NCBI GenBank assembly: GCA_963575745.1
Contig: CAUYUJ010001452.1
Coordinates: 1 to 64,000 of the forward strand
Source of the DNA: Prorocentrum cordatum
Taxonomy: Eukaryota > Sar > Dinophyceae > Prorocentrales > Prorocentraceae
Direction of reading: 5' to 3'
DNA: 64,000 nucleotides
Below, in pieces: positions 26,827-60,341 of this stretch (position 1 is the stretch's first letter; every line of letters starts with the position of its first letter). A program made the position numbers and the translations under genes. The notes beneath the pieces were generated by a model. The model worked only from the letters and a program-made list of their open reading frames with translations, ran no database searches and had not been told where the DNA came from.

Positions 26827-27224
26827 TTTTTTTGCGGTTTGCGGTCCGCCACTAGAATCCGAATCCGAATCGGCGGAGCAGTGCAACTGAGCCCCCACCA
26901 TCTTAGGTAGGTCGTAGCAGAGCGCACGCCACCTTAGCAGCAGCTCTCGTCAGGGCAGCGCAGGCAGCTAGTTCACAGCAGGTTACCGTGCTACCAGGAG
27001 GCAAGCTCATCGCCTCCTCGGCCACATCGTGCCAATGGAAGCTGTGCGAGCTGGTGCAGGAGGAAGAGGAGGAGGAGGAGGAGGAGGAGGAGATGGGAAA
27101 ATCAACCTGCACGTTGGAACCCCTACCTACAACGCCAATCTGAAGCCACCACCCACCTCCACATCCTTCATTACTGACACCCCCATCGAATGCACCACGG
27201 AGAGCAGTCTTACGAGTACTGAGG
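26827..27224 (-). mobile_element. 5'-truncated LINE copy D with 10-bp target duplication
   Basis: A 398-bp insertion in the loop of a hairpin repeat, bounded by AACCTTTCTT at 26817-26826 and 27225-27234. The left end, read on minus, finishes in a CCGCAAACCGCAAAAAAAAA-like tail, as expected for target-primed reverse transcription. It retains only the last part of ORF2 and a short 3' UTR. Confidence 0.88.
26903..27224 (-). pseudogene. ORF2 C-terminal fragment (RNase H-like) of copy D
   Basis: Open from the 5' truncation to TAA at 26903-26905. It carries the two C-terminal motifs of the family. RGAFDGGVSNEGCGGGWW corresponds to the RNase H first-strand DG motif. After a serine run (an expanded TCC tract), STVTCCELAACAALT corresponds to the catalytic Glu helix. 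The same motif order is seen in retrotransposons A and B, so the fragment is independent support for the arrangement of the domain. It lacks endonuclease and RT and cannot move by itself. Confidence 0.85.
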
Positions 27225-35490: not shown

Positions 35491-35499
35491 CGAGTTACC

Positions 35500-38240: not shown

Positions 38241-38571
38241 AGGTACTTCGGCGCGAGTTGCTCGAGGCTCGTGTTCCGGCGGCTTTGTCCTGAGCATTTC
38301 CCAGTGCGCGGGCCCAGAAGCTCTTCAGAAGGTCCTCTGGTGGTTCTCTCTAGGTCCTTCCAGTGTTTCTCGCCGGGCCCTGCTACGCCCGCCGGGCGCC
38401 CTTCCGTCGTAACTCGTAGAGCTTCCCCTTAGCAAGTTATTGCTGGAAGCTTAAGAGTACCTCGTAGAGCTCTTCGGCATCGATGAGCTAGAGGAAATCC
38501 GGCGCGGGGTGGAGCTAGTAACTCGTAGAGCTTCCCTTAGCTATTTGCTGGAAGCTTAAGAGTAATTCCGG

Positions 38572-39704: not shown

Positions 39705-39899
39705 CGCCCAGTGACTCGTAAAGCTCCCCTAAGCTAGCAGCTGGAAGCTTAAGAGTAATTCGGACGCACTGGCGGGCTAGCTTAAGAGTAATACCTCGTA
39801 GAGCTCTTCGGCATCAATGAGCTAGAGGAATTCTGGCGCGGGTGGAGCTAGTTGGCCGACCCGATGAAAAGAGACAATGTAGCAACTTTGGGTTGGTTT

Positions 39900-40860: not shown

Positions 40861-41074
40861 GCGCTGGTCGACCCGACCAGAACGGACAAACTGATAACTT
40901 TTGGTGGTTTGGCGAAAATTTGAAAGATATTTGACCATTTATTTTCAGAAATCAGATTTTCACGCGTAGCATTTGTATCTAAACGTAATTCTCAGAGCAG
41001 CTCAGCTATCTCGAGAGAGTTTTACTATCCGAAATTCACCGGGAACCGACATCCCAGTGACATCGAACTGGGCG

Positions 41075-41108
41075 CCGGCGGTAAACCGTCAACCTTGGTT
41101 ACCGCCGG
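41075..41108. repeat. hairpin repeat 14
   Basis: CCGGCGGTAA / TTACCGCCGG, perfect arms. Confidence 0.85.
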
Positions 41109-42089
41109 GAGACTCGTAGAGCTTCCTAGCTCGACTTAAGTTGAGAAAACCGACAGCAGCTACCAACATTCCGACTTATAGTAAATATTTTTTGACATCT
41201 GAATGCGACAGGCGGATGCGTCTAATGTCTGCGAATCGACTCCTGTCATGACAAGCCCTGCAGCCCCACTACAGCCCGAGTTAAATGCAGAAAACCGACA
41301 GCACCACTCAGGATGACTCGAACAATACAGTAGTTTCGCAGACTAATTCGGGCAGCAGACCGAGTTCCGAGCTCTGGATTCGACAGGCGGGCGCGCCTGA
41401 GTTCTTCAGATCGATTTATGTGACCACCAGCACTATAGCCCCCCTCAGCGCGAGTTGAGTGAAGAAAACCGAGAGCACTTCTCAAGATGACTCGACCAAT
41501 ACGAATAGTTTCGCGATTCTAGATCGAGCAGCAGACGGAGTTCAGAGCTCTGGGTTCGACAGACAAACGCAACTGATGATTCTCAATCGGTTTCTGTAAA
41601 TATCAGCTCCGTAGCACTCCTACAGCTCGAGTTAAGTACAGAAAACCCAGAGTTCCTGTCAAGATGACTCAAATAATACGAATAGGTTTGCGAACGTAGC
41701 TCGGCTAGCAGACCGAGTTCAGACCTCTCGATTCAACAGGCGAACGCGCCTAATCAGCATCGATTAGCTGTGCTTACTACAAGCTCTGTAGCTGTCCTGA
41801 AGCTCGAGTTATGTTCAAAAAACCGTCAGCGCGTATCAAGATGACTCAAAACGGCCGATCCCACCACCGTGCTTTCGATAGTAGTATTCATCCGATCGAG
41901 CTGAGATCAAGATGGCGAGCGGGAATGAGATCGAACATCACGGAAAAAATACTAGAGCTCTAACAAATTGTTGAATTTTGAGAACATAATTTTCAATCGA
42001 CCAAAAGTCACCAAAATTTCTGTCGAGATTTTTCTTGCCAACTAGCTCTCGAGCGCGCCGGAATCACTCTTAGCTCCCAGCAACTGGCG

Positions 42090-42122
42090 CCGGCGGTGAA
42101 CCGTCAACCTGGTCACCGCCGG
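42090..42122. repeat. hairpin repeat 15, GTGA type
   Basis: CCGGCGGTGA / TCACCGCCGG, perfect arms. Confidence 0.85.
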
Positions 42123-42318
42123 GAACCTCGTAGAGCTCCTCTCACTAGTAAGAGTGCAGAGAGTCGACACAAAATCAAAAAATGGACATTTCTCGAAAAT
42201 CTTGAAATTCGATTTGTTCGATGTTCATATTCGCTCAGTTCCCGGAAGTCAACTCATGCAAAAATGCATCGAGAGAGTTGTCACATTGTCCGCCTCGGCC
42301 GGCTGGGCCAACTGGGCG

Positions 42319-42352
42319 CCGGCGGTAAACCGTCAACCTTTCTTACCGCCGG
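42319..42352. repeat. hairpin repeat 16
   Basis: Perfect GTAA-type arms, loop CCTTTC. Confidence 0.85.
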
Positions 42353-42466
42353 GGGACTCGCAGAGCTTCCTGATATTATATAATGTGGGCAAAAATCCAG
42401 AGAACCAATAATTTTTCAGCCCAAGCGATTTCAGACCTCTCAAGATGACTCTAACAAAACTGGGCG

Positions 42467-42500
42467 CCGGCGGTAAACCGTCAACCTTTCTTACCGCCGG
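42467..42500. repeat. hairpin repeat 17
   Basis: Perfect GTAA-type arms only 115 bp after the previous copy. Confidence 0.85.
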
Positions 42501-44389
42501 GGGACTCGTAGAGCTTCCTGCAATATATACTGTGAAAAAGAATTTCAGAGAACGACTAGTTTTTCAGCCCAAGCGATTATAGACCTCTCAAGATGACTCT
42601 AACAAAACAAACGAACAGTTTTCCAATCGAGCTCGAGTATGAAACCGAGTTCAGACCTCTGAATGCGACAGGCGGACGCGTCTGATGTCTGCGGATCGAT
42701 ACCTGTGATTACCAGCCCTGCAGCCCCCCTACAGCCCGAGTTAAGTGCAGAAAACCGAGAGTACCTCTCAGGATGACTCGAATAATACAACAGTTTCGCG
42801 CATCTCGTTCGAGCAGCAGACCGAGTTCTGAGCTCTCGGTTCGACGAACGGACGCGCCTGATGTCTCGAAATCGATTCCTGTGACCAGCAGCACTGTAGC
42901 CTCTCCCCCAGAACGATTTAAGTGCAGAAAACCGAGAGCACTTCTCAAGATGAATCGAACAATACCAATAGGTTCGCGAACCTAGCTCGGGGAGCAGGCC
43001 GAATTTAGAGCTCTACATTAAACAGACGAAGGCGCCTGATAATTCTCAATCGATTTCTGTGATTATCAGCTCTCTGGCTGCCCTACAAATCGAAATAAGT
43101 ACGAAAAAACGAGAGCGCCTGCTACAATGATTCGAATAATACGAATAAGTTTGCGACCCTAGCCCGGCTAGCAGACCGAGATCAGACCTCTGGATTTAAC
43201 AGGCGAGCGCACCTAATTATTCTACATCGATTAGCTGTGCTTACCAGCTCTGTAGCTGTCCTACAGCTCCAGTTAAGTACAAAATACCGACAACGCGTAT
43301 CAAGATGACTCGAAACGGCCGATCCCGCCAGCGTGCTTTTTGGCAGTAAAAGATACCCGATCGAGCTGAGGTCGAGATGACGAGCGGAAATAAGATCGAA
43401 TATCACGGGAAAAAATACTAGAGCACAAACGAATTGTTGAATTTTGAGAACAAAATTTTCAACCGACCAAAAGTTGTGAAAATTTCAGTTCTTTTTTTTC
43501 GAGCCAACTAGCTCTCCAGCGAGCCGGAATTACTCTTGATCTCCAGCAACTAGCTTAGGGAAGCTCTACGAGTCACAACCAACAGTATGACAATTCAGCT
43601 CGAGTATCAAACTGAGTTCAGATCTCCAAATGCGACAGGCGAACGTGTATGATGTCTGTGAATCGACTCATGTGACTCCTGTGATTACCAGCCCTGCTGC
43701 CCCCTACAGCCCGAGTTCTGTGCAGAAAACCGATAGCACCTCTCAGGATGACTCGAATAATACAATAGTTTCGCGAGCCTAGTTCGAGCAGCAGACCGAG
43801 TTCCGAGCTTTCGGTTCGACAGACAGACGCGCCATGTTCGAAATCGATGTCTGTGACCAGCAGCACTGTAGGCCCCCCCCCCCGAGCACGAGTTAAGTGC
43901 AGAATACCAAGAGCACTTCTCAAGATGGCTCGAACCATACAAATAGTTTCGCGAACCTAGCTCGGGCAGCAGGCCGAGTTCAGAGTTCTCGATTCAACGA
44001 ACAACGCGGCAAACGGTGGTGGTGGCCGCCAGGAGCATCTCCACGGCGGTGCACAGGCCACACAGCGCTTCGTGTCTCGGCGGCCCGATAACGTGTCCGG
44101 CAAAGCTTCCGGCGCTTTCACGCGTGCCCGAACGAAACATGATTTTTTGATGTCGACATAAAATTGGTTGATCCAAGTGTTTTCATAGTAAAAGTGCATC
44201 TGGAGAGCTCATATGAAGACGCAGAGGCCCTCATAGTCGTCTAGAATTGCGAACAATCTGCTTTCTCAATAAATGATTAAATACCTTTCAAAAAATGCAA
44301 AACCACCCAAAAGTTGCCACATTGTCCGCCCGACTGGCTCGACCCCGCGCCGGAATTCCTCGAGCGCATCCATGACGAAGAGCTCTACG

Positions 44390-45534: not shown

Positions 45535-47856
45535 CTAGGGTCCCTCACGCCCTCTCAACCTCTTTGGGGTTGGAGGCCCGAGGATCTCAGAGATAATCTG
45601 CCGAACACCTTGGAGCAGGCGTTCACAAGCCGTGAGCTCGCTATCTGTAACAGTGGCCCCCAGAGGGAGTAAAGAAGCCTCCTGGAAAACTCGTCGCCAG
45701 TGGTTGTCCCCAAATGAGACCTCCACATAGCAACCTAGAGCAGAGCCTTCAACACTCACGCCACCGTCCCATCCTCCACGGATACGCTTGATACAATGTC
45801 TCTGTTGTCGTAAATATCTGAAGTCAATCCATCTTCCCGTCCTTCCCCTCCTCGCCTCCCAAGTCAACTCATCCGCAACACAATTGAACTCTCTGTAGAT
45901 ATGCTTCCACGGATCCGTCCCTACAGTGGCACACCTGATGTCGTAATCCTCCGCTAGTTGATTCATATCGTTTTGTAGACCGTGCACTCTCCTGCGGTAC
46001 GAACGATCACGGCATTCCCAGATCCCTCGGGCCCAGTTCACCACACACATACTATCACCAGTCATTTCAACCAACAATGAGTTCTCCGAGCCCTCCTGCC
46101 AGACAGTTTCGTTGTTATATCCGTGGGCAATCCTACGAGCGAGCCTGTCGGAGTCCTCAGGGGAGTCCCACGTATCCACAGGGCAAGGAGCACCGGGCGG
46201 TTTCCTGAAGATGGGCTCCCATCGAGGCTGTATTTTTATCATGCACGCAACTACATTCCACCAGTCCGTCGCATTCCACTTGATGCTGAACCAGCGTAAA
46301 TTACCACTCGCCGCCAGCATAAGACAATGCCAGCTGTCAGTGCTTGCATGCGCTCTTCCTCCCACTCTCCTCGTACCTTCCCTCCTCCTGGCTCCCGTGA
46401 ACATGGATACAAGTGTGTCCCTCCGTATTGACCATTCCCCCGCACAGTGTAACATGGCCTGCAGCGTCTGACGCCAGGCTCGTGCCCCACGCAAGGCCGT
46501 GGAGGCGAAGGCCCGATCATGAAACTGGGCCAGCTCCAGCGCAAACTCGAAATTGGCTCGGACCACCTTCTCTAGGAGACTGCAGTGGCCAGCCTGCAGG
46601 AATAGCTCGTATGACTTCGGTGTGGTCCTGTCCCTGAATTCCTCCCACGTCTCCTCCTCCCTCTTGTGTAATCCTCGCATACCGTTGAGACACCTCCCCT
46701 CCCATACCTTAATCCTCTCCAGCAGTCGTAGATTGCACGGCCATCCTATACATCCGTGGTACACCACAGACTGCACGCGAGCGGCATACCTGCGAAACTT
46801 CTCTTTGAGTGAGACCGATCTGGAGCGATAAAACTGGATGTCAGCAAAATAGGCCTTCCTCCCTTTCTCCAGTCGATGATACAAGCCGTGATATCCCTTG
46901 ATTTCCGAGCTGAGCTTCACTCCTAGTACCTCCACCTCCTCCTTCCTCGGCATAACGACAGTCGAGCGCAAGTGCTCTGGGAGATCCTCATCTCCAGAAA
47001 TCGCACAGATGGCTGGTGAGAGCGGGCAGAGCAGCGGCGGATCGCCACCTGTGTACGTCTGGCCAAAAAGTACATACGCCAAAGAGTCCTCCTTCCAGTC
47101 CATCCCCGCCCGTCTGAGTGTCACCGTCATCATACCGATCATCTGTTGTAGCTGGAGCTGCGATGCGGCACAGAGCGTAACATTGTCCGCCCACAAGAAG
47201 TGATGTACAAGAGCACCGTCCGTCCCCTCCCCTTCCAGTCGGACACCGTATCCTAAGGTATCCCAAGTCTGAATCACAGATCCCCAGATGGCCTCCAAGA
47301 CAATATTGAAAAGTATGGGTCCCTCCTTACCTCCCGTTCGGACCGATTTGTTGTATCTCACCTCATCGCCGCACACGTTCTGAAACTCAAAGGTGGCAAT
47401 GTTATGCAGCATGGGCTCCACAATGGCTCTGATGAGGCACACGGGGTACTTAAGGTACAGCATGGCCTTGATGATAGTGTGCAGTGTGACATTATCGAAA
47501 GCTTTGTGTATGTCCAAGACTCCCACGTGCATAGACTCCGCCTTCCCCCACAGATTTGCATGTCTAGTAAGATGTGATAGTGGTGCCGTGACGTTAGTAA
47601 CCTTCTGATCCTTTTCAAATCCGTATGTGCACAACCGTCGGTTCACAGGAAATGCATCAATAAACTGCAACACACATGCCATGTACCATTTACTCATCAC
47701 ACTGATCAGGCAAATCCCTCTGGTGTTGGAGAGTCGTGTAGCATCCCGCATCTTCGGCACAAGTTGGATACTGAGCTGCCTCCACGTCTCAGGGCTGGAG
47801 GCTCCCTGCTCGAAAATCCTCTGGAAAGCACGCCGCACAAACTGAGGCTCCTCCAC
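45535..47856 (-). CDS. retrotransposon A ORF2, reverse transcriptase and RNase H-like part
   Basis: 773 codons in the frame after the break. RT motif A is VLDIHKAFDN (Asp 115), motif B GGKEGPILFN (175-184), and motif C WADN (222-225) where most RTs have (Y/F)xDD. The C-terminus holds RNase H-type motifs in permuted order: TGDSMCVV (Asp 601), H652 with ADEL Asp 662, GGWDGGVSVEG (Asp 697) and VTDSELTAC (Glu 740). The frame begins at the frameshift, not at a real start codon. Because ORF2 is broken, this copy is probably inactive unless the shift is a sequencing error. Confidence 0.88.
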   Translation of the reverse strand: MEEPQFVRRAFQRIFEQGASSPETWRQLSIQLVPKMRDATRLSNTRGICLISVMSKWYMACVLQFIDAFPVNRRLCTYGFEKDQKVTNVTAPLSHLTRHANLWGKAESMHVGVLDIHKAFDNVTLHTIIKAMLYLKYPVCLIRAIVEPMLHNIATFEFQNVCGDEVRYNKSVRTGGKEGPILFNIVLEAIWGSVIQTWDTLGYGVRLEGEGTDGALVHHFLWADNVTLCAASQLQLQQMIGMMTVTLRRAGMDWKEDSLAYVLFGQTYTGGDPPLLCPLSPAICAISGDEDLPEHLRSTVVMPRKEEVEVLGVKLSSEIKGYHGLYHRLEKGRKAYFADIQFYRSRSVSLKEKFRRYAARVQSVVYHGCIGWPCNLRLLERIKVWEGRCLNGMRGLHKREEETWEEFRDRTTPKSYELFLQAGHCSLLEKVVRANFEFALELAQFHDRAFASTALRGARAWRQTLQAMLHCAGEWSIRRDTLVSMFTGARRREGTRRVGGRAHASTDSWHCLMLAASGNLRWFSIKWNATDWWNVVACMIKIQPRWEPIFRKPPGAPCPVDTWDSPEDSDRLARRIAHGYNNETVWQEGSENSLLVEMTGDSMCVVNWARGIWECRDRSYRRRVHGLQNDMNQLAEDYDIRCATVGTDPWKHIYREFNCVADELTWEARRGRTGRWIDFRYLRQQRHCIKRIRGGWDGGVSVEGSALGCYVEVSFGDNHWRRVFQEASLLPLGATVTDSELTACERLLQGVRQIISEILGPPTPKRLRGREGP

Positions 47857-49316
47857 GGCAACTCACGAATGACCTCCGCAACGACTCCATCGCTGCCAGG
47901 CGCCGTGCCCGGCTTCAAAGACGCACGAGCCTGCATGAGCATGCCCATCGTGATGACTCTTCCCTCCACCCCACGGTCGTTGTGTCTGAGTTCCTGGAAG
48001 GCCTCCAAAGTCCGTTTTTCCTCCTCCGAGTTCGTGTAAGACGCCGTCGCATACCTAGTGATTTCCGTACTCCACCTAGTCCTGTCCATTGTCAGCACAC
48101 CCTCACACTCCAGCTCCTTGAGGATACACCGTGAGGTCTTACTGGATCCCCTGTGGTCCTGCAGGAGTTGGTTCCTCCTATGCTGTCTCCTAAGGGTCTT
48201 CCTCCTACGCAGCAGTTGTTTACGAGTATTCCCAAGGGCCCCACGCCTGATGGCAGACTCCACCTCTATGAGCTCCCTGGGCCTCTGAATAGGTTTGCAG
48301 TTGGGGCGCCCCTTAGTGTGGTCCACAAGCTTTGCCGTCTCCAAGAGTACCCGTCCGACCTGCTGCAGGTCCGTCCCTACCGTGTCCGATGCAAGTCCCT
48401 CAATCGACACATCCGCAAGCACACGAAACATGTTCCTCGCCGTGTCATCCGTCGGCTGCCAGCCAACCATGGACACAGGGCGGGGTGGCAAAGCTGGGCG
48501 CCTGATCTCCGTCGTCTTGAGATTTACCCAGACCAGAGCGTGATCACTATAGGCACTGGCTTTTGCACGTATACCTGGCGTAGCTTTGATGGGTTCCACA
48601 AACTGGACCTGGCATCTCATTTCCTGGTGAGCTCTTGCCTCATCCGCGCACCAACGTGTAGGGATGAGTATATAGTCAAGCACACGCTGCACATGTGTGG
48701 AACAGTACGGTATATGTGTGATACGTCGGTCTCCATATGTGTTCGCCGCACAGATCCCCCAAGTACTCATGAACCTCATAAGCATGTCCCTCCTCTCTGC
48801 ATGGTAGTTCGCCTCCTCCCTCCTCCCGTCCACCTGCATAAGACCTCCTCCCGTCATTCCCAGCATATCTGGTTCAAGTTCCGTCTGAGCATCCATCCCC
48901 ACCCATGGTATGACTCCAGCCTGTGTAGTTTGAAACATAGTAACACTGCACTTAGTAAGTACATCTAAATATTCCCCCAAGTGGTCCACATCACGCATCA
49001 CACATGGTAGATACACTGATGTAACTAGAGCACCCCTGAATTCAACACACGCAAATCGTACCCCACTCCGTCGAGCAATCACATGTGGTGCCCAATCCCT
49101 GCACCATGCAACCGCCGCCTTGGAGCAGGAGCTATAGTGAATCTCCCATCCACATCTGTTAAAAGTATTTGCACTGGTATGCTCACACTCTTGCAGGCAC
49201 ACCATTTGAATTGACCTGGCTTCACATGCAGCGACCAGGTTGGGTACTTGACCGTCGGATATTTTCTGCACATTCCAGGTTGCGACCACGGTCTCAGTCG
49301 CAGCCCTACCGCCCCG
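47706..49316 (-). CDS. retrotransposon A ORF2, endonuclease part
   Basis: About 536 codons, open from the codon after the ORF1 TGA. It encodes an APE-type (EEP) endonuclease, which nicks target DNA to start reverse transcription. Motifs, numbered from the GTG at 49289: TWNV (4-7), CLQEC with catalytic Glu 34, MDAQTEL (132-138; Asp kept, the usual Asn is Gln), LDYILIP (204-210) and YSDHAL (247-252; Asp-His pair). A linker and the start of the RT (KPGTAPGSDGV) follow. The frame is lost after LPWRS near 47,845, and the RT continues in another frame at 47856. No AUG precedes the first endonuclease motif. Confidence 0.85.
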   Translation of the reverse strand, partial: RGGRAATETVVATWNVQKISDGQVPNLVAACEARSIQMVCLQECEHTSANTFNRCGWEIHYSSCSKAAVAWCRDWAPHVIARRSGVRFACVEFRGALVTSVYLPCVMRDVDHLGEYLDVLTKCSVTMFQTTQAGVIPWVGMDAQTELEPDMLGMTGGGLMQVDGRREEANYHAERRDMLMRFMSTWGICAANTYGDRRITHIPYCSTHVQRVLDYILIPTRWCADEARAHQEMRCQVQFVEPIKATPGIRAKASAYSDHALVWVNLKTTEIRRPALPPRPVSMVGWQPTDDTARNMFRVLADVSIEGLASDTVGTDLQQVGRVLLETAKLVDHTKGRPNCKPIQRPRELIEVESAIRRGALGNTRKQLLRRRKTLRRQHRRNQLLQDHRGSSKTSRCILKELECEGVLTMDRTRWSTEITRYATASYTNSEEEKRTLEAFQELRHNDRGVEGRVITMGMLMQARASLKPGTAPGSDGVVAEVIRELPWRSLSLCGVLSRGFSSREPPALRRGGSSVSNLCRRCGMLHDSPTPEGFA

Positions 49317-49319
49317 TCA
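49314..49319 (-). promoter_or_regulatory. candidate stop-codon readthrough site, TGA CGG
   Basis: The ORF1 stop TGA (49317-49319) is followed by CGG and stays in the frame of ORF2, with no other stop. UGA-CGG is an established readthrough context in plant RNA viruses such as tobraviruses; use here is an inference. Confidence 0.55.
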
Positions 49320-50951
49320 ATGATTCGGGCACCGTAGTGTCTGAAGAAACTGCACCTGATTAATATCGGGCTCAACGTGTGTCAAATTATCACCATAGAG
49401 GTTCCATCCTTTTGTCGGTCCCCATTCTGCAATCAAAGTCTTTTGTGTAGTATCATCAGCATTCGGCATATACCACATATATGTCATTGGCGGACCCGTC
49501 TCACCTCGAAGAATAGCCGTCGCATTTTTCTTGATATCAGAGAATAGTGCTTGAAACCGTCCTACTGCCCGAACATGTTCTATCTTCCATGGCTGGCATT
49601 CAACTTGGAATCGCACATTGGCCGGCAGTGAAGTGAGTCCCCGCCTGTAGTCATTCTCCCACACACGTTTCGCTTCCCATAGGATCTCAGAGGATGTGCC
49701 TGGCTTGAAATAGATCCTACCCCTCGTATACGGCCAATATCTACCAGTATTCTCCTGAACCGTCCGATCCAAGTCCAGTGCCACCCTCTGTGTAGCATCA
49801 ATTTGTTTAGAGTCAATGAGACCATTCATCGCCGTCGTCAGTGCCTCCTGTGAAAGAGCCTCCCGCTGACGTATCTCACGGTTCCTCCATCCCTCCCTTG
49901 AAACCCACCCTTTGAACTCAACATAACGTGGACTCCAACCAGGGTCGTGCCTGTCCGTACCCGCCTTCGTGGATCCGCTTGCTACCGACAGCCCGTCCCC
50001 CTGCTTGAGCTTCTGAACTTCATTGGTGAGGTCCTGGATCGCCGATTCTGTTTTTGATACCCTAGAGTCCAGAGATGTTTTCAGACCGTCCATTTCCGTA
50101 CGAATAGTGTTCCTGAACGATTGCATGTCTGCCGTCATAGTCTGTTGTCCCGTCATGATGGATCGAAACATCTGTTCAATGTCAAGGCCTGCTTCCTGGG
50201 CAACCTCCTTCGCACCCAACGTTTGTCCCGCACCTCCTCCTTCTCCTTTCCCTGCTCCTTTGACATTACGAGCACGGACAGCTCTAGCAAACGCCCCACC
50301 CCCATCATCAATTGTCATGTCCTGGCCCACCGCATGCAAGCCTGGAGCACCTGAAACTGAAGAACCTGCTGGCATCGCTGGTGCAACACCTGAAACTGAA
50401 GAACCTGCAGCAGCCATCTTTCTTTTGTGGCTGCGTAAGATATTGAAATCGTAACCTTCACCCTGCACGAAGTGGTTACGCAAGATATTGAAATCGTAAC
50501 CTGCACCCTGCACAAACGGTACTGTTGGTGTGAGCGATGGCACACAAATAACAGCTCTCCTGTCACTTCGAGGTGTCCCGACCTGTCTGGCTAGATAGTC
50601 CCAGTCCGCGTGACTGAAGTCGGATCCCCAGCACTCCGTCTTCCCAAGAGAGAGGAAAAATAGACAATTACAGCAGTAACAATAACAATAACAAGTGCAG
50701 GCGGCCTGGCACACACAATAACAATAACAAGTGCAGCGGCCTAGCTGACCTCGATCTTGCTGAACCCGAAGAAGACGATGAAGGCAGCGATGGCTGCCGC
50801 GCCGCCGCCCGCGGCGACGCGCCCCCCCCCCAGACACTAGACGCCTGTGGGATCCAGACGCCTTGATCCAGACGCCCATGTAAGCGTCCAAAACCCGGAT
50901 AGCGAAGCCAAGCGCGGAACGCCGAACTGGGCACCGGCGGTAAACCGTCAA
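49317..50951 (-). CDS. retrotransposon A ORF1, coiled-coil nucleic-acid-binding protein
   Basis: Open for 544 codons, but the first ~20 come from the adjacent hairpin repeat and residues 72-97 from a TGTTAT-type repeat, so the AUG at 50417 (366 residues) is a more cautious start. Residues 150-175 contain a tandem FVQGxGYDFNILR. A coiled coil is likely at 255-315 (heptad-rich, Met/Leu/Ile). The conserved C-terminal domain shared with B and C has YVEFKGWV (343-350), IYFKPGTSSEILWEAK (413-428), VECQPWKIEHVRAVGRF (450-466) and LRGETGPP (481-488). The layout resembles LINE ORF1 proteins, which coat the element RNA; the binding role is inferred. It ends in TGA directly in frame with ORF2. Confidence 0.78.
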   Translation of the reverse strand: MTVYRRCPVRRSALGFAIRVLDAYMGVWIKASGSHRRLVSGGGARRRGRRRGSHRCLHRLLRVQQDRGQLGRCTCYCYCVCQAACTCYCYCYCCNCLFFLSLGKTECWGSDFSHADWDYLARQVGTPRSDRRAVICVPSLTPTVPFVQGAGYDFNILRNHFVQGEGYDFNILRSHKRKMAAAGSSVSGVAPAMPAGSSVSGAPGLHAVGQDMTIDDGGGAFARAVRARNVKGAGKGEGGGAGQTLGAKEVAQEAGLDIEQMFRSIMTGQQTMTADMQSFRNTIRTEMDGLKTSLDSRVSKTESAIQDLTNEVQKLKQGDGLSVASGSTKAGTDRHDPGWSPRYVEFKGWVSREGWRNREIRQREALSQEALTTAMNGLIDSKQIDATQRVALDLDRTVQENTGRYWPYTRGRIYFKPGTSSEILWEAKRVWENDYRRGLTSLPANVRFQVECQPWKIEHVRAVGRFQALFSDIKKNATAILRGETGPPMTYMWYMPNADDTTQKTLIAEWGPTKGWNLYGDNLTHVEPDINQVQFLQTLRCPNH

Positions 50952-50967
50952 CCTTGGTTACCGCCGG
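50934..50967. repeat. hairpin repeat 18
   Basis: Perfect GTAA-type arms at the 5' side of retrotransposon A. Confidence 0.85.
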
Positions 50968-50984
50968 GGAACTCGTAGAGCTTC

Positions 50985-51905
50985 CAAGCTCGACTTAAAT
51001 TGAGAAAACCGACAGCACCTACCAACATTCTGAGTCATAGTGAATATTTTTTTACCTCTGAATGCGACAAGCGGACGCGTCTGATGTCTGCGAATCGACT
51101 CCTGTCATTACCATCCCCGCAGCCCCCTACAGCTCGAGGTCAGTGCGGAAAACCGACAGCATCTCTCAGGATATCTCGAACAATACAATAGTTTTGCGAA
51201 CCTGGTTCGGGCAGCAGACCGAGTTCCGATCTCTGGATTCGACAGGCGGACGCGAATGACCTCTTCAAATCGATTCATATGACATCCAGCACTGTAGCCC
51301 TCTCCCAGCACGAGTTGTGCAGAAAATTGAGAGCACTTCTCAAGATGACTCGACCAATACGAATAATTTCGCGATTCTAGATCGAGCAGAACACCGAGTT
51401 CAGAACTCTGCAGTCGACAGACAAACGCAACTGACGATTCTGAATCAGTTTCTGTAAATAGCAGGTCGATAGCTGTCTCACAGCTCGAGTTAAGTACAGA
51501 AAATCGAGAGTTCCTGTCAAGATACCTCGCATAATACGAACAGGTTTGCAGACTTAGCTCGGCTCACAGACCGAGTTCAGACCTCTGGGTTCAACAGGCG
51601 AACGCGCCTGATCATTCTGCATGCATTAGCTGTGCTTACCAGCTCTGTAGCCGCCCTAGAGCTCGAGTTATGTTGAGAAAACCGACAGCGCATATCAAGA
51701 TAACTCGAAACGGCCGATCCCGCCAGAGTGCTTTTTGGCCTTTAAAGTTACCCGATCGAGCTGAGATCAAGATGGCGAGCGGGAATAAGATCGAATATCA
51801 CGGGAAAAAATACTAGAGCTCTAACGAATTGTCAAATTTCGAGAACAAATTTTTCAACCGACCAAAAGTCAGCAAAAGTTCCGTCGAGATTTTTCTTGCC
51901 AACTG
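50985..51905 (+). repeat. higher-order unit between retrotransposons A and B
   Basis: Satellite units and a complete conserved tail (near 51,770) between hairpins at 50934 and 51910. Confidence 0.85.
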
Positions 51906-51909
51906 GGAA

Positions 51910-51942
51910 CCGGCGGTAAACCGTCAACCAGGTTACCGCCGG
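51910..51942. repeat. hairpin repeat 19
   Basis: GTAA-type arms, loop CAACCAGG. Confidence 0.85.
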
Positions 51943-52320
51943 GACCCTCGTAGAGCTCTTTTCTCACAGGGCGCTCCTTGGAAAGCGTCTAGAGCAAGAC
52001 CAGAGAAACTCGAAAAATCATGTTTTTCTGTTTTTATGCAACGTCGGTTCCGCCAAGTGTTTTGATAGTAATACTGCACCTATGGGCCTGAAAATTTTAC
52101 TGGCGAACGCGCGATAACCCACTACAGGTGCGAAAAATCTGCTTTTTCAAAATGAATTGTCAAATATCTTTCAATTTTTCGCAAAATCACCCAAAAGTTA
52201 ACACTTTGTCCTTTCTGGCCGGGTCGGCCAGCTAGCTCCACCCCGCGCCAGAATTCCTCTAGCTCATCGATGCCGAAGAGCTCTACGAGGTACTAGCTCT
52301 CCAGCGCGCCGGAACTGGCG

Positions 52321-52344
52321 CCGGCGGTGAACCGTCAACCTGGT
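52321..52344. repeat. hairpin repeat 20, left half (split by retrotransposon B)
   Basis: CCGGCGGTGA plus loop; TCAACCTGGT at 52335-52344 is the first copy of the target duplication. Confidence 0.92.
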
Positions 52345-52378
52345 TTTTTTGGGTTTTCGGACCGATGCTCCAGCTGGG

Positions 52379-55300
52379 TCAACTGGCGGCCAGAATCTGT
52401 TGCGCCAAATGCACAACAGCGCTAGTAAGCGCCTCAGCAGCACTAAGTTCGGCGTCGGTTATCGTAGCACCCTCCAGGCACCACGCGGCTTCGCACACAT
52501 CCCTCCAACCGAGAGGCATATTAGAGGACACGGAATAGGGGGAGGAGGAGGGGAGAGGAGAACACGAGATACACTTATTACAATCATATCTGTGATTGAT
52601 GAAACCCACTTGAAGCCAAAAGCCGCACCCCGTTCCTTTGCTGCAAACTCCCCCATCGTAACCACCACGACAGGCGATAGGTTGTAGAAAGTCCTCAAAG
52701 CTAAACTTGTACTCATATTGGTTGTAGAAGCAGTGGCCCTCGCGGGCCAAATGTGTAAGTTCATCAGCCCGTGTGTTATCTTCCCTGAATTCATGCCTAT
52801 ATAAGTCTTTCCCCAATCCAGAACTTCGAATACCCAGATCCCCCGCAGCTCGATCTAGAACGTTAATACATCGGTCCACCCGTCTCTGGTATTGTTTGTT
52901 GTCGCACCGCCATCGTCCCGTCAGCCAGTTATTCACAAGTAAACTATCCCCTTTGATTTCTACCCCGAATCCTGGACTTACAATGTCCCATACCGTCTGC
53001 CTCTCGCAGATGATCGCCAATCTCTTAGCAAGTTTTTGTGTATCTTTCTCACTCGGTATACGCTCAGCATCCCCCCCCATCTCGGGAGGTGTATAGTGCG
53101 CCGCTGTGCCCTTCCAGTTCTGAACAAAGTACAGGAATACCTTTGGTTTATCGTACGTACACAAAAGATTCTGCCACATCTCCAGGAAAGAACTATAACT
53201 CGTCTCGACACTCGACCACCAACAACTGCCATATGTAAGAATGTATGGATACTGCCAGCTACGCTGGCCCACCCTCTCTGGACCAGCTCTCAACCTCTTG
53301 ATCGTGGATGCCTGAGTACGGTTCCCGTGTAGACGGCAACATTCTGTCATAATGTCCCTGCGCGTTGTCCACTCAACATTGTACATGAGCAATCCCCTTC
53401 TGCTGTCCACGAAAGCTCTGTTATCAGGACTGCAGTGATCAATATCATGACCTGGCAGGGAGAGTGTGGGCAGTAGAGCCGCCGACCCACTCCCTGAATC
53501 AATATTCTCAGAAGCCACACCATTAGTCCCAGTCTTTTCAAGTTCACTCAAAGAGTCACCGCCAAACCCTTGTCGTAGTCCCTGCAGTCGTCGTCTTTTC
53601 AAGTTCTGCCTGTTGAAGCTGGCGTCCTGGGTCGCAACATGTCTGGCGAGCTCCTGTGAGACATTCTCCAGCCTCTCACTCAATGCAATACTCTCAGCAA
53701 CAGCTTGTGAGATGGCTCCCGTGAAAGATTGCGAGGGTGTATCAGCAAAGCGTACTCTCTTCTGGGAAGGCTCTGGATCAGCACCAAACGTGGCGACGTG
53801 TGCCTGGGGTGTTCCCTCGCATTCGGGGCTTCCCCAGGACTTGCGTCCTGACGCCTCTTGCAAAACTTGGCGACGTTGCCTGAGGTGTTCCCACGCACTC
53901 GGGGCTTCCTCAGGACTTGCGCTCTGACGCCGTTGAACATGTCGTCGGTGACAATCTGACAGGATATACTCCTTGATACTTCTCATCATCGTCCAGCTCT
54001 TCCAAGCAATCATCTGCACAGCTGATGGGAAATTGGCCTCAGCGAAATGCTGTCGCACCTTGTGGAGCATCTCAGGGCGCCAGACACCCCATGTTAGCGA
54101 AGACGGCTTGCGGCGGCACCACATACGCAGTAGGCACATGCCTTCAAAAGCATGTATGGTTCGCACCGCCTCAGCATCAAGCGTGAACATCTCTCCCGCA
54201 TATAGCAGACGCGATTGGACCTGAGCTTGATAACGGCGATATTTATGTTTCAGCGGTACCGATCTGCACCCAAAATATGATATCTGAGCGAAAAAGGATC
54301 CCCTGGCGCATTTAAGTCGATGCGCTAGGTCTTCGTGTCCCTCGAGAAAACTTTTGCAGACAACGCAGCCCAGAATAGAAAGCGACTCCACCGGCGTGAA
54401 GGCAACTCGTTGGTCTCCGACTTGGGCCAAAATCGGCGTAGGGTCCTGGGTCCCGCATACGAGTATCTGCAAGGATGATGACTTCCAACTCATTCCCCAG
54501 TCTGTTAAAGCAATGGTGAAAACATCAACGATCTTCTGGATTTCCTTAGCATTCCTCCCCACAAGGTACAGGTTATCAGCCCAAAGCGCATGGTTGTACG
54601 TGTGGTAGGTAGCGGGGTTGTGGGGGTCGGGGATCTCGTATCCTATGTTCTGAGCGTCCAGAGAGGCAACTACAGAGGCCCACATGGCGATAACCACGAT
54701 GTTGAAAGCTAGCGGGCTCTCAGTCCCACCCGAACTCAAGCTCTTATCCCAAGAAACCCCATCCAGTTGGATCCCTTCGAAGACGATGGTGCAATTTGTA
54801 ACAGCGAGCGGCTCAATAAGTGCATATTGTAGGCGTGCTGGGATCTCTAGTTTATCCATTGCGCGTGCAAGCATACTGAGCGTGACATTGTCGAATGCTC
54901 GTGCAATATCTGCCGATGCAATATGTGCGCTCTGATCTTTGCCCCATATAGAAGCGTGCTGTGCAATACCTTTAAGTGCGGCCGCAATCTCCCATGTGTG
55001 TCGTCCCCCTGCGAAGCCGTAGATTCCCAACTTACTTTTCCACAAAGCCAGCCTGTCCTCAATAAGAATAGTGACCGCCGTGAGGTACCACTTGCCTAGA
55101 GTGTTGGAAATTATCAAATTCCTGGTGTCATCCAGGGACTCCATGTTGGACATCTTCGGCATGAGATTCAAATACACGTCACACCATGAGCTGGGAGTGC
55201 GCCGACGACCTGAATATATCTCCTGAAACACAGCAGTGATCCTGCGCATCGAGCGCCATGGCAGAGCTTTGAGTAACTCAATGCTAACACCATCGGGTCC

Positions 55301-56722
55301 ACAAGCTTTGCCGCTACGAAGGCGAGCGCGGGCTCGATATATGACGGAAGGCGTGAGTGTGGGGCCAACTGCTTGGCTGTCAAGTGCTGCGCAACGGAGA
55401 CGTGTAACAAGTTGTGCATTACGCTCACGCTCAGCAGAACATGTCATGGTACGTACTGTGTGTGCCTGCACCTCCTCCTCCCAGGCCTCCCTGTCCTCCG
55501 TGACAATACCATCCACCTTCAATTTACGAACTCTCGTCCTCTTCCCCCTCCTAGTCGGTGCTACTGAATATTCAGCTTTCTGTCGATTGTGTTCGTCTTG
55601 CAATGGTCGGAGTTGCCGTCTAAGTTCACGCTGTGCTTGCCGATTGCCTTTATGTTCACGAACTTGCTTTTCAAGTAGGGCGTGCTGTGGGGTCCTCGCA
55701 GGGGGTGACCTCTGGTGTCCAGGAGCACTCAGCAGGGGCAGGGCGTGATCACGAATTGTTCTTGCCATCTCCTCTGGGCCTACAACAGGCACCTGGATAT
55801 CCACCAAAGCTCGAAACATATCCTCCTCCCTATGGCTCTCGAACTGCTTATGGGCACTATGATGCCTAGGTGCAGGACGGTAACGTGATGTAGGCTTCGC
55901 TGCAACATTCATCTCAACACGAACGAGAGCATGGTCGCTGAATCGGCTGTCGTGAGCCTCATACAACATGTCCACTCTACCGTCTACAATCATGTCAGAC
56001 CAACTGGTGGGCACCATGATGTAATCAAGCACACGGGGAGCCGTCTGCCTGCCTAAAGGTTCAAAAGTAGGCACCCTCCGAGTCCCTAGTGTATTTGTCG
56101 CGCAGAGCCGCATCCGCTGCATGAAGCCCTCCATCTCCTCCCTCATGTGATCTTCCCTCCACCTCCTCTGTTCATGATCCCCCTTCACACCATACCCTCT
56201 ATGCATAGCAATGGACAGAGCTTGGCCTGTGTGGATCCCGAACCTGGTCTCCAGTCCAGGCGTCAACTCCACTTGGCAGTCCCCCGCCAGCACAAGTCTG
56301 TAGTCGGACCCATTCTTCGAACACAAGTGTGCAAACGTCTGCCTTATATAACTAAGCATATTCTTCTGAACATCAAGTGCATCATCACGATCGCAGTGCG
56401 GGAAATACGCCGACACCAAGAAAACACACGGACGCCTAAACGCAAGTATTGAAATACGGTCTGTTGAAAAACTGGCTTTGATATTATGACGTTGTTGCCC
56501 TCTGATCACAACGCCAGCCTGCTTGCAAGTAGAGAGATAAGATTCCCATCCCAACTTTCTAAAACTGATCGAATTATGTGAGAGGTTCTGGCACTCCTGC
56601 AGACACACGATATTTGCCCCAAGTGTCGACAGCAGGCGCATGCAACTAAATCCCCTGTCCTGACTCTTGCCGATCTTGTTCACATTCAAAGTCCCAAGCT
56701 GCATAAGTAGGGAGTCAGGCAA
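52379..56722 (-). CDS. retrotransposon B ORF2, endonuclease / reverse transcriptase / permuted RNase H
   Basis: Intact frame of 1,447 residues (numbered from the TTG at 56722; first AUG is residue 7). EEP endonuclease, about 7-270: LNVN (12-15), LQECQ with Glu 43, AGDCQVEL with Asp 148, LDYIMVP (232-238), SDHAL (262-266). RT, about 465-800: CGPDGVS (474-480), motif A ADIARAFDN with Asp 605, motif B SGGTESPLAFN (664-674), motif C WADN (714-717). A long variable segment (930-1100) includes a QRRQSASPEEAPSAWEHLRQ-type part. The RNase H-like domain, about 1225-1447, has its catalytic motifs in permuted order: GDS Asp 1259, His 1310, RADEL Asp 1320, YDGG Asp 1356, TDAEL Glu 1425. The protein would nick the target and copy the element RNA. 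Confidence 0.92.
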   Translation of the reverse strand: MPDSLLMQLGTLNVNKIGKSQDRGFSCMRLLSTLGANIVCLQECQNLSHNSISFRKLGWESYLSTCKQAGVVIRGQQRHNIKASFSTDRISILAFRRPCVFLVSAYFPHCDRDDALDVQKNMLSYIRQTFAHLCSKNGSDYRLVLAGDCQVELTPGLETRFGIHTGQALSIAMHRGYGVKGDHEQRRWREDHMREEMEGFMQRMRLCATNTLGTRRVPTFEPLGRQTAPRVLDYIMVPTSWSDMIVDGRVDMLYEAHDSRFSDHALVRVEMNVAAKPTSRYRPAPRHHSAHKQFESHREEDMFRALVDIQVPVVGPEEMARTIRDHALPLLSAPGHQRSPPARTPQHALLEKQVREHKGNRQAQRELRRQLRPLQDEHNRQKAEYSVAPTRRGKRTRVRKLKVDGIVTEDREAWEEEVQAHTVRTMTCSAERERNAQLVTRLRCAALDSQAVGPTLTPSVIYRARARLRSGKACGPDGVSIELLKALPWRSMRRITAVFQEIYSGRRRTPSSWCDVYLNLMPKMSNMESLDDTRNLIISNTLGKWYLTAVTILIEDRLALWKSKLGIYGFAGGRHTWEIAAALKGIAQHASIWGKDQSAHIASADIARAFDNVTLSMLARAMDKLEIPARLQYALIEPLAVTNCTIVFEGIQLDGVSWDKSLSSGGTESPLAFNIVVIAMWASVVASLDAQNIGYEIPDPHNPATYHTYNHALWADNLYLVGRNAKEIQKIVDVFTIALTDWGMSWKSSSLQILVCGTQDPTPILAQVGDQRVAFTPVESLSILGCVVCKSFLEGHEDLAHRLKCARGSFFAQISYFGCRSVPLKHKYRRYQAQVQSRLLYAGEMFTLDAEAVRTIHAFEGMCLLRMWCRRKPSSLTWGVWRPEMLHKVRQHFAEANFPSAVQMIAWKSWTMMRSIKEYILSDCHRRHVQRRQSASPEEAPSAWEHLRQRRQVLQEASGRKSWGSPECEGTPQAHVATFGADPEPSQKRVRFADTPSQSFTGAISQAVAESIALSERLENVSQELARHVATQDASFNRQNLKRRRLQGLRQGFGGDSLSELEKTGTNGVASENIDSGSGSAALLPTLSLPGHDIDHCSPDNRAFVDSRRGLLMYNVEWTTRRDIMTECCRLHGNRTQASTIKRLRAGPERVGQRSWQYPYILTYGSCWWSSVETSYSSFLEMWQNLLCTYDKPKVFLYFVQNWKGTAAHYTPPEMGGDAERIPSEKDTQKLAKRLAIICERQTVWDIVSPGFGVEIKGDSLLVNNWLTGRWRCDNKQYQRRVDRCINVLDRAAGDLGIRSSGLGKDLYRHEFREDNTRADELTHLAREGHCFYNQYEYKFSFEDFLQPIACRGGYDGGVCSKGTGCGFWLQVGFINHRYDCNKCISCSPLPSSSPYSVSSNMPLGWRDVCEAAWCLEGATITDAELSAAEALTSAVVHLAQQILAAS

Positions 56723-56746
56723 CCCACTCTTAGGACCCGTTGAGCC

Positions 56747-56752
56747 CCGTCA
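56747..56752 (-). promoter_or_regulatory. candidate stop-codon readthrough site, TGA CGG
   Basis: The ORF1 TGA (56750-56752) is followed by CGG GGC and continues in frame into ORF2. A has the same TGA CGG GGC. Confidence 0.6.
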
Positions 56753-58153
56753 ACGACTTGAATTGAGAGCGGCCGTGAAATCATCATACGTGCATGTGAT
56801 ATTTGTATTGTGCTTAATCGTGCCATCCCATATGTCACGATGTACTTCCCAGTTGCCCGTCGCCATCTTGAATACAGCAACCTCAACCGGTCTGCGGCTC
56901 GCATCGGAAGGCTTCGACCAGATCGTACTCGTACCATTGCCCGACCCCGTCTCGGCCTTGATATCCATCGCTGGGTTATTGCCTATCTTTTCACGCCATG
57001 TGCCGTAAAACCTCCCGCATGCCGAAATGTGATCCTTCTTCCATGGAGGTGCTTCCAAGCGAACTCTGACTGTTGCTGGGGTGGCTGTCATATTTGCGAA
57101 CATGCTGGCACGTATGGGTGGGCTACGTGCCGTCTGCTGTGGCGTGCGGGTGTTGTCAGGCGTGAAGGCATATTCGAGAAGTTGCTTGATCTCCCAGAAA
57201 ACTGAATCTTCCGTGCCCGCAGTGAACTTCATCTTCACCGAGCTCAGCATCATGCGGCTGCCGTTCAAGCGTAGGGTTCCCATCGCATCGAATCGACTAT
57301 CGATCTCGTTGGGAAGTATTGACCTGATATTAGTAATGAGCTGAGCAGCATCCGAATCCCTCATCATCGACTGTGAACGCTGAAGTGTTGACCCATTCCA
57401 TTGTGTCCATCCAGTGAGCTCGACAAAGCTACGATGCCAAGAGAGCCTCTGTCCTCCCCCACCTCCCAGAGGATTGGCACCAGGGCCGGTACCGAAACCT
57501 CCAGAGGTGGATGCGCTGGCAGTGCTTGGTGGATTCGAACGGAGATCCCTCATCTGACGCTCTAGGTCACTCATGCGTTTGTCCTGCACCTCCTGATGGG
57601 TAGAAATGCGTGCGATATCAGCTTTCATCATTCCCTGCTCGGCTGCTGCTACCGCCTGACCTGCCATGATTTCTTTGTGAAAGTTTTGCATCCATCCAGG
57701 CGCCTCGCTCGCTGTGGACAAGCTGGCCGCCTTGGCTGCCTCAAGAGACTGGCGTGCCTGAGCAAGCGCATCTTGATATGCTCGTCCCTCCCCATCACGT
57801 CCCTCTGCCCCGCAATGACGAACCTGCCTCTGAAAATCCTCCCCCGCTCCCATGGCTGCATCCCTTCCTCCAGGCATGTTGGCAGCAATATTGGCCATAT
57901 CTTCAGAGTCTGGGAACCCCCACCTTTGAAGAAAAGCACGATCTTGTAGCACTTCACTTGCACGTTTGAAACTGTGGCGTGAAGTCCCGAAATATTGATC
58001 CAAATCAACAGAAGGTATGTCCAAGGAAGGACCCTGTCTACGATACCACTGTGATGCTGTCTCTCCCCAATGTTCGAGACCACACTGCCGACGAAAGACA
58101 ACTTGTGAATCCCAGGAGTCTTCCGTCCTGAGTCGTCCAGATCGTACTCTCAC
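56750..58153 (-). CDS. retrotransposon B ORF1, coiled-coil nucleic-acid-binding protein
   Basis: About 467 codons between an upstream TGA (58166-58168) and the TGA at 56750. The N-terminal region (HWGETASQWY near residues 28-37 and RAFLQRWGFPDSED near 72-85) matches ORF1 of C (RWNETVAQWH, KAFLNKWGIP). A coiled coil is likely near 160-215. The conserved domain follows: FVELTGW, FTAGTEDSVFWEIKQL, VRLEAPPWKKDHISACGRF and WEVHRDIWD. No AUG precedes residue ~86, within the conserved N-terminus; the GTG at 58153 is only a marker of the open frame. Initiation may be non-AUG, or an upstream exon may supply the start. The role is probably to package the element RNA. Confidence 0.82.
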   Translation of the reverse strand: MRVRSGRLRTEDSWDSQVVFRRQCGLEHWGETASQWYRRQGPSLDIPSVDLDQYFGTSRHSFKRASEVLQDRAFLQRWGFPDSEDMANIAANMPGGRDAAMGAGEDFQRQVRHCGAEGRDGEGRAYQDALAQARQSLEAAKAASLSTASEAPGWMQNFHKEIMAGQAVAAAEQGMMKADIARISTHQEVQDKRMSDLERQMRDLRSNPPSTASASTSGGFGTGPGANPLGGGGGQRLSWHRSFVELTGWTQWNGSTLQRSQSMMRDSDAAQLITNIRSILPNEIDSRFDAMGTLRLNGSRMMLSSVKMKFTAGTEDSVFWEIKQLLEYAFTPDNTRTPQQTARSPPIRASMFANMTATPATVRVRLEAPPWKKDHISACGRFYGTWREKIGNNPAMDIKAETGSGNGTSTIWSKPSDASRRPVEVAVFKMATGNWEVHRDIWDGTIKHNTNITCTYDDFTAALNSSR

Positions 58154-58244
58154 GGTAACAATGAATCAAATATGCAAAGATGTACGGTACTCAGGCAAAA
58201 ACGACTCTGAGGCACCGTGTACAGTAAGTGGAACAAAGAACGCC

Positions 58245-60341
58245 TTACTGCACAATGCAGCTCGAGACGAGGGGGACCCCAGCGGTGAGACCAAGCCAAG
58301 CAGGAGGTAAGCTCTGCTCAACCTGGTCACCGCCGGGAACCTCGAAAACTGACTTCCATATCAGCTGAGCGGGGTCCCGTCGATCCCAATATCGAGGTTT
58401 GAGGCCTATGTCAATCCAGCAACCGCACCCACATCCCTCAGACGACACGCCGCCATCGAAACCAGCCCGAATAGCAGCAGCAACGTAAAACTCTGTCTCA
58501 TAATCATGTGTATACGGACTACATTCAGAACTAGAAATCTGGCCCTCTCGGGCCTGGTGTGTTAGAACGTCGGCACGAGTATTCCACTCCCGAAAATCAT
58601 GACGAATAAGATCCATACCCGGCGCTGGAGGTCGTATATTATAACTGCTACAAAGCCCATCAAGCGTATTGATTATTTTTGATATTCTATCCGCATATGA
58701 TTTATTATCTGCACGCCACCGTCCCGTAGCCCAGCTAACCACGAGAAGCGAGTCACCCACCACCTCCAGAGGGATTCCAGGGGCCTCCAGGTTCCAACGG
58801 GTTGCTTTCATATTATGAAGAGCGATGCGCTTTGCAAGTTTCTCAGCAGCCATCGGACTATCATCCGTGCTCACCTGAATTTCACCATGCTCAGAGGGCG
58901 CCAAATATGCGGGCAAACCCACAGGTCCGCACGTCGACACCTCCTGGAAACATTGAAGCATGCTCTGAGTACAAAGGTGTGTGACGTATTGCATAAATCC
59001 AAGCTGGGAGCCTGCAAAATGAATCCACCAATCATCTCCGAAAAACTCAGCCAATGTATATTGCCATGACCTCTGTCCAATACTCTCCGTACCTCGACAG
59101 CGACGTTTGTAAGAAGATGCCTCTGACCAGTTGCCAAAGTGTCTCATCGTCTCGCTCATAAGTGTACGAGTGCGGTCAGTGTACGGTCCAAAACATAAAC
59201 ATGCCATACGGGAATCGCGCCATGTCCTCTCCGTATCCTTCAAGTCAATGACTTTCTCAACGATCATGCCCTTTGCAAAACATGCAATGTCTTTTGCGAA
59301 ATTCCAGTGCAATATCAGATAACGCTGGACTAGAGAAGAATACCCAGCCTTCAAGAAACGTTCCCGTGCGACATGATATCTCCTCTGCTGATAAGCTTGC
59401 TCCGTTTCCGTCGGGCCTTTTCGAGAAGAGATCATCATCTTCAGGCATTTCCCTTCGAATGAATGGAGAAACGAAAGAGTATAAGAATCTGCAGTGGTGG
59501 TCTCCATACCATACAGCGCCAAGCTCTGGACTCTGTCCTGGTATCTCCGCAGCTTATCCTTGAGAGGAATACAATGTGACCTGAAATACCCTGCCTGAGA
59601 GTAAAATGCGCGACGAGCACAGTCAAGGCGAAAAGAAACATCACGATGTACAGAACAGTTATATTCACTATGCAGCTGCGTGCCCAGTACGTCCATAGAA
59701 ACAACCCGACGATAACATAACTCATCAATCTGCTGCACTACATTCCTCCCGTCACATGCATCTGAGAAGATCGGTATTTTGAGATCCATCGAACGCGGAA
59801 TATTCCCGTCCTCATCCAAGATAGCAGGAGTTCCGCACACCATGTACTTCAGCGATGTGGGTTTCCATCGCATGGAGAAGTTGTACAGTGGAAGTGTCAA
59901 GTCTCTTACCATACGGGTAAGCTCCTCACGGCTACGACTGACGAGGTACACGTTATCTGCCCAGATAAAATGATTCACCACCGACCGATGCTCCGTACCG
60001 AAATCTACCGCATACCCCATGCCCTGAACGTCCCAATTGTGAATAACGTCACCCCACATGGCAGCAATAATGAGGTTAAAGCCCAAGGGCCCTTCTGGGC
60101 CTCCAGTCCTAATACAGGTGTCCCACTGGATGTTATCAATCTCCAACCCGTCATAGTAGAGGCAGCCCGTGCTGTGCGATAACGGATCCAGAAACGCGTG
60201 CTGTAAATACGCAGGGACACGTGCATGCTCAAGACCCTTATGGACATTCTGTATCGTGCAGTTGTCAAAGGCCTGGTATATGTCCATGTCCGCAACGTAC
60301 AGACACTCACGCTTCCCCCACTTGTCCCCGTGCATGCACAT
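58245..60341 (-). CDS. retrotransposon C ORF2, reverse transcriptase and truncated RNase H-like part
   Basis: 698 codons from an internal Met after the frameshift. RT motif A is ADMDIYQAFDN (Asp 20), motif B TGGPEGPLGFN (79-89), motif C WADN (127-130). The RNase H-like part has VVGDSLLVV (Asp 530), His 581, RADVL (Asp 591) and GFDGGVSSEGCGCG (Asp 629). The Glu-bearing helix is missing: after residue ~142 of the domain the frame runs into hairpin-repeat sequence (FEVPGGDQV) and then into the 5' UTR of B, ending by chance at 58245. The protein is therefore probably inactive. Confidence 0.84.
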   Translation of the reverse strand: MCMHGDKWGKRECLYVADMDIYQAFDNCTIQNVHKGLEHARVPAYLQHAFLDPLSHSTGCLYYDGLEIDNIQWDTCIRTGGPEGPLGFNLIIAAMWGDVIHNWDVQGMGYAVDFGTEHRSVVNHFIWADNVYLVSRSREELTRMVRDLTLPLYNFSMRWKPTSLKYMVCGTPAILDEDGNIPRSMDLKIPIFSDACDGRNVVQQIDELCYRRVVSMDVLGTQLHSEYNCSVHRDVSFRLDCARRAFYSQAGYFRSHCIPLKDKLRRYQDRVQSLALYGMETTTADSYTLSFLHSFEGKCLKMMISSRKGPTETEQAYQQRRYHVARERFLKAGYSSLVQRYLILHWNFAKDIACFAKGMIVEKVIDLKDTERTWRDSRMACLCFGPYTDRTRTLMSETMRHFGNWSEASSYKRRCRGTESIGQRSWQYTLAEFFGDDWWIHFAGSQLGFMQYVTHLCTQSMLQCFQEVSTCGPVGLPAYLAPSEHGEIQVSTDDSPMAAEKLAKRIALHNMKATRWNLEAPGIPLEVVGDSLLVVSWATGRWRADNKSYADRISKIINTLDGLCSSYNIRPPAPGMDLIRHDFREWNTRADVLTHQAREGQISSSECSPYTHDYETEFYVAAAIRAGFDGGVSSEGCGCGCWIDIGLKPRYWDRRDPAQLIWKSVFEVPGGDQVEQSLPPAWLGLTAGVPLVSSCIVQ
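58318..58336. repeat. hairpin repeat 20, right half
   Basis: TCAACCTGGT (58318-58327) is repeated and runs into CACCGCCGG, completing the GTGA-type hairpin. Confidence 0.92.

Follow-up and report, generated by a model that had tools for sequence, protein, structure and literature searches.

Few protein folds have been studied as thoroughly as that of RNase H. The window analysed here, a stretch of 64,000 nucleotides from Prorocentrum cordatum (contig CAUYUJ010001452.1, positions 1 to 64,000), raises the question of whether LINEs of this dinoflagellate carry an RNase H in which the two halves of the domain stand in exchanged order. We consider it very probable that the ORF2 C-terminus of these LINEs is a circularly permuted archaeal-type RNase HI (aRNH), whose new ends fall between helix A and strand 4. 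Structure prediction and profiles support the fold and homology of this predicted domain. A conserved and abundant RNase H permutant would be a natural test of active-site survival after re-wiring of the chain, and would also inform the placement of RNase H relative to reverse transcriptase in LINEs.

LINE copies in the window and the order of their motifs

Three LINE copies lie head to tail on the minus strand from 63.6 to 45.5 kb, in the order C, B, A. Each comprises an ORF2 and an ORF1-like frame; a further copy, D, consists of the 3' part of an element alone. The ORF2 proteins of A, B and C are only about 24-39% alike in aligned blocks, and therefore represent three families rather than copies of one family. 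Pfam placed RVT_1 over the cut-off in ORF2 of all three, which identifies them as LINEs by their reverse transcriptase, and Exo_endo_phos weakly, below the cut-off, in A (E 0.034) and C (E 0.039). No Exo_endo_phos match was listed for B ORF2, the N-terminal part of which resembles the regions of A and C that look like an endonuclease. In copy A, ORF2 is divided between two frames. When the entire ORF2 frames of A, B and C were searched, no RNase H family appeared among the Pfam matches at E up to 1, and the permuted order helps to explain how annotation can miss RNase H. The features, all on the minus strand, are as follows:

58248..58460, minus strand: C, start of the RNase H first half (FDGG); the frame is lost before the Glu helix
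58539..58802, minus strand: C, RNase H second half, GDS to RAD (boundaries estimated manually)
58245-60416, minus strand: C, ORF2 reverse transcriptase frame
56750..58165, minus strand: B, ORF1-like open frame
52379..56749, minus strand: B, ORF2 open frame of 1456 aa, reverse transcriptase and predicted permuted RNase H
52733..52996, minus strand: B, RNase H second half, placed first, from strand 4 (GDS) to the last helix (RE-N--AD), residues 1252-1339
52382..52687, minus strand: B, RNase H first half, placed last, from strand 1 (DGG) to helix A (TDAEL), residues 1355-1456, then stop
47706..49316, minus strand: A, ORF2 upstream frame, endonuclease-like region
45535..47862, minus strand: A, ORF2 downstream frame, reverse transcriptase and predicted permuted RNase H
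45841..46107, minus strand: A, RNase H second half, placed first, residues 586-674 of frame 45535-47862
45580..45798, minus strand: A, RNase H first half, placed last, residues 689-761
26903..27224, minus strand: D, DGG-to-CEL half and ORF2 stop, nothing else left

In the canonical RNases HI compared, the motifs run DGG, Glu, GDS and RE-N--AD. Downstream of the reverse transcriptase in ORF2 of these LINEs, a GDS strand is followed by the RE-N--AD helix, a DGG strand, a TDxEL helix and the stop (the Glu helix being present in A and B), so that, relative to the canonical order, the chain is cut after helix A and before strand 4. The linker joining the old ends, from the last Asp to DGG, measures 35 residues in A and 36 in B. 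The permuted order proposed by the sequence-only reading (GDS, a RADEL-type helix, DGG, then AEL or SEL) is thus present in A and B. The residues it named are the same as D1268, H1319, D1329, D1365 and E1434 in B and D603, H654, D664, D699 and E742 in A, when the count begins at the open frame's first codon; its own start lay 9 (B) and 2 (A) residues later. Its description of copy C as lacking the Glu end was likewise borne out, since C has GDS, RADVL and FDGG before the frame is lost, and copy D shows, as described, DGG, then TCCEL, then a stop.

The earlier assignment of a catalytic His, 10 residues before the last Asp, had to be given up. This position is Trp in P0011, one of three public relatives (P0009, P0010 and P0011), and canonical archaeal-type RNases HI carry either His or Trp there. 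As the position is variable, the match in H-to-D spacing with E. coli RNase HI looks coincidental. The Arg lying 7 residues before the last Asp, in RE-N--AD, is invariant among the six relatives, and this, together with the variable His position, marks the domain as of archaeal type. Read from the sequence, the predicted catalytic set is the archaeal-type D-E-D-R-D, and the active-site His should read Arg. Both D-E-D-H-D (ordinary) and D-E-D-R-D (archaeal-type) RNases H are described in LINEs in the retrieved parts of PMC5348765 and PMC4640811. It had also been claimed that no DG or Glu motif stands upstream of GDS, and this agrees with our comparison of the six relatives, in which the only invariant columns from residue 392 of A to GDS are Gly and Trp. 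Immediately ahead of GDS, B has a helix that is alignable with helix A, though Lys stands in place of the Glu.

The catalytic box of the reverse transcriptase, normally [YF]xDD, reads WADN in A, B, C, P0009, P0010 and P0011, the second Asp being replaced by Asn.

Profile comparisons and predicted structures

Cutting the domain and re-joining its halves in canonical order was expected, on the permuted reading, to improve the profile match, and it did. Against four canonical RNases HI, hhalign gave the re-joined profile a score of 90.4 over 123 columns (E 5.2e-15, probability 98.4) and the native one 74.0 over 65 columns (E 7.7e-12, probability 97.5). By these E-values the domain is homologous in sequence to the aRNH family. 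When the columns of the DGG half were shuffled 200 times, the mean score was 73.6 and the maximum 86.3, and the re-joined score was reached in 0 of 200; the DGG half alone scored 26.5, against a shuffle maximum of 19.6. The corresponding HMMER control was weaker, with the re-joined score reached in 1 of 200 shuffles and that of the DGG half alone in 0 of 200. A re-joined five-sequence profile matched LC11-RNase H1 (3u3g) over positions 5-165 with E 2.4e-5. In native order the same profile matched 3u3g with E 7.2e-4 as two separate segments whose order was exchanged, with the DGG segment contributing about 0 bits, and its top match was 3hst (1.5e-4), through the GDS half only. A canonical profile run on the six native C-termini gave two segments, in exchanged order, in P0010 (20.8 and 0.2 bits) and in P0011 (2.6 and 1.1 bits). 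The remaining four C-termini each gave a single segment, that of B extending into the helix upstream of GDS.

Among Pfam families, RVT_3 alone matched all five cut-out domains tested, in each case through the GDS half, between profile positions 55 and 123. The scores were 27.2 bits for P0009 and 23.9 for P0010 (cut-off 21.6), and 13.7-14.7, below the cut-off, for A, B and P0011. Re-joining the halves raised them by just 0.2 to 1.1 bits, and the DGG half alone matched Pfam RNase H models in 0 of 5 sequences.

AlphaFold (AF2) models of A and B both have the order b4-aB-aD-b5-aE-b1-b2-b3-aA, and the canonical RNase HI order b1-b2-b3-aA-b4-aB-aD-b5-aE was found in neither; we therefore call the domain a permuted relative of aRNH and not an ordinary member. 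The models were built on six sequences. That of A had pTM 0.73, with pLDDT of 90 or more in 125 of 236 residues, and that of B pTM 0.68, with pLDDT of 90 or more in 109 of 277 residues; pLDDT over the five B models ran from 41.9 to 70.8. Values exceeded 90 across much of the core in both. With VIA-align, the GDS side of the A model was aligned at residues 55-140 to 66-149 of 2ehg and at 49-138 to 64-141 of 3aly, and the DGG side at 152-221 to 67-133 of 4e19 and at 154-225 to 3-70 of 4h8k. The sequence-only reading had looked to a structural superposition for an RNase H fold with permuted connectivity. The predictions point that way in part: both models are permuted and, by VIA-align, the A halves pair with archaeal-type RNases HI in exchanged order, but B was aligned on the GDS side only, with a chain start at 25-26 in 4 of 6 RNase HI matches, so the exchange is not shown by B. 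Z scores of the RNase HI matches to both models were low (3.3-4.1) and fell below those of unrelated folds, for example CinA (5.5). The six RNase HI matches to the B model had 20-29% identity, against 12% or less in the other 44 matches listed. The top Foldseek match of A was PelC, with E 9e-4 but TM 0.27 and rmsd 12.6.

Conservation across the genome and in divergent relatives

We searched the 4.13 Gb genome for further copies. The dinoflagellate spliced leader gave 7,201 + 7,017 (14,218) exact matches and its reversed control pattern 0, which marks the host as a dinoflagellate. For the C-terminus of B, 140 matches were scored of 5,494 candidates, all reaching the last residue and 5 with an inner stop; at least 93 had 94-100% identity and at least 47 had 73-76%. 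For that of A, 150 matches were scored of 5,448 candidates, all with 94-100% identity and reaching the last residue, 10 with an inner stop and many lying in frames of 1260 aa. Copies of A and B together at 94% identity or more thus number at least 243 in the 4.1 Gb genome, these counts being lower bounds. All 50 fetched loci of B and its 75% sister group, and all 30 fetched loci of A, retain D-E-D-R-D; this count is biased upward because the loci were best matches or hand-picked from the match lists; copy C is without the in-frame Glu.

Comparison of a B locus with one of the 75% group (L001 and L031) gave dN 0.100, dS 0.765 and dN/dS 0.131 for the DGG half, and dN 0.151 with saturated dS for the GDS half. 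Closer pairs of loci had dN/dS of 0.10 to 0.63 in the DGG half, a wide spread on few changes. Among the 30 A loci, subject to the same biased selection, pN/pS was 0 in the DGG half (pS 0.026), 0.385 in the GDS half, 0.486 in the stretch before the GDS half and 0.105 in the reverse transcriptase part.

The three public relatives have the same permuted order, two of them at near 25% identity. With the P0010 domain as query, 150 matches were scored in this genome (of 4,252 candidates) at 26-38% identity, 137 of which ran from the GDS side to beyond the Glu position in one match, and many of which lay in open frames of 1238-1355 aa. One of these, L081, carries GDS, RE-NKRAD, DGG and TLGEL in that order. 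At the level of sequence, the permuted order is thus shown to be conserved across several divergent families. It is not a product of chance, since D-E-D-R-D is retained in the fetched loci and the order recurs in P0009, P0010, P0011 and L081. Local misassembly is excluded as its cause by the many genomic copies, the divergent families and the public relatives. Not all RNase H in this genome is permuted: at least 80 RVT_3 matches were found (150 of 610 candidates scored), and 27 of the 80 begin at profile position 2-3 and extend at least to 119, that is, in canonical order.

Relation to known RNases H, origin and alternative explanations

The predicted domain shares D-E-D-R-D, the GDS strand 4, the RE-N--AD last helix and the predicted strands and helices with archaeal-type RNases HI (LC11-RNase H1, 3u3g/4h8k; Rv2228c, 3hst; H. 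salinarum, 4e19; Sulfolobus, 2ehg/3aly), and differs in its exchanged halves, in having its termini at the junction of helix A and strand 4, and in a longer stretch before the last strand. Plant L1 (Ta11), oomycete L1 and oomycete Utopia are likewise LINEs with aRNH, but with D-E-D-R-D in ordinary order, aligned with cellular RNase H; a text search found no mention of permutation in either source (PMC5348765, PMC4640811). Symbiodinium LINEs (SymbioLINE-Dnmt) are also dinoflagellate LINEs with ORF1 and a reverse transcriptase in ORF2, in contrast to which the ORF1-like frames here had no methyltransferase match in Pfam, and the part of that paper retrieved describes no permuted RNase H (PMC5890265). 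Neither permutation nor circularity is mentioned in the main text of a 2014 survey of the RNase H-like superfamily (PMC3985635). In open-licence papers, searched mostly by title, we found no natural circular permutant of RNase H described, nor, in the open-licence literature, a permuted RNase H in retrotransposons or RNase H-like transposases; open-licence titles and abstract beginnings on dinoflagellate LINEs gave none describing a permuted domain. LINEs with archaeal-type RNase H were already known, and what appears to be new here is an RNase H with swapped halves in a LINE.

LINE RNase H is thought to clear template RNA after first-strand synthesis. Because the domain here retains both the residues and, by prediction, the fold, that role is also the likeliest for it: during target-primed reverse transcription, the permuted RNase H would most probably strip the RNA strand from the RNA/cDNA hybrid. 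Permuted domains usually arise when a domain is duplicated in tandem and the two outer halves are then lost, and this domain may have originated in the same way. Two weak hints would fit a duplication, namely the alignable pre-GDS helix of B and the last 14 residues of P0010 after helix A, RCGAVFFNSDCSVR, which are strand-like with NSD, like a second strand 4; this tail is possibly a relic of the duplication. L081 also extends beyond helix A, with REIFFVSL. We somewhat favour the view that the permutant arose once, by tandem duplication and outer-half loss in the ancestor of a large dinoflagellate LINE lineage, and that it would still be active in many families beside a WADN reverse transcriptase.

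The same two hints could also be read as traces of two decayed tandem RNase H domains whose halves do not pack in one chain; an active enzyme would then require two ORF2 molecules to exchange parts, if one forms at all. The permuted order would follow from two such truncated domains, the P0010 tail resembling a second strand 4 and the B helix, with Lys for Glu, a former helix A. We regard this as improbable, because AF2 models both halves within one chain with high confidence, the catalytic residues of both halves are kept in 80 of 80 fetched loci (by the same upward-biased selection), and in A, B and D the frame ends shortly beyond helix A. Still harder to credit is that the C-terminal part belongs to some other alpha/beta domain with look-alike motifs. 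The ranking of CinA and PelC above RNase HI in sequential structure searches speaks for it, but RVT_3 as the sole Pfam family common to all five sequences, the identity of the six RNase HI matches to the B model and the hhalign probabilities in both orders speak against it. A circularly permuted aRNH therefore remains our preferred reading of the ORF2 C-terminus.

Some repeats of the window lie beside the LINEs. A repeat with a period of approximately 177 bases forms many arrays across 25869-43191, with related copies near 51.0-51.7 kb and 63.8 kb. A segment, GGTTGACGGTT[TC]ACCGCCGGCGCC, is common to the 3' tails of B (52180-52381) and D (26705-26910), and occurs on the same strand in the tandem repeat unit at 42310 (42310-42608).
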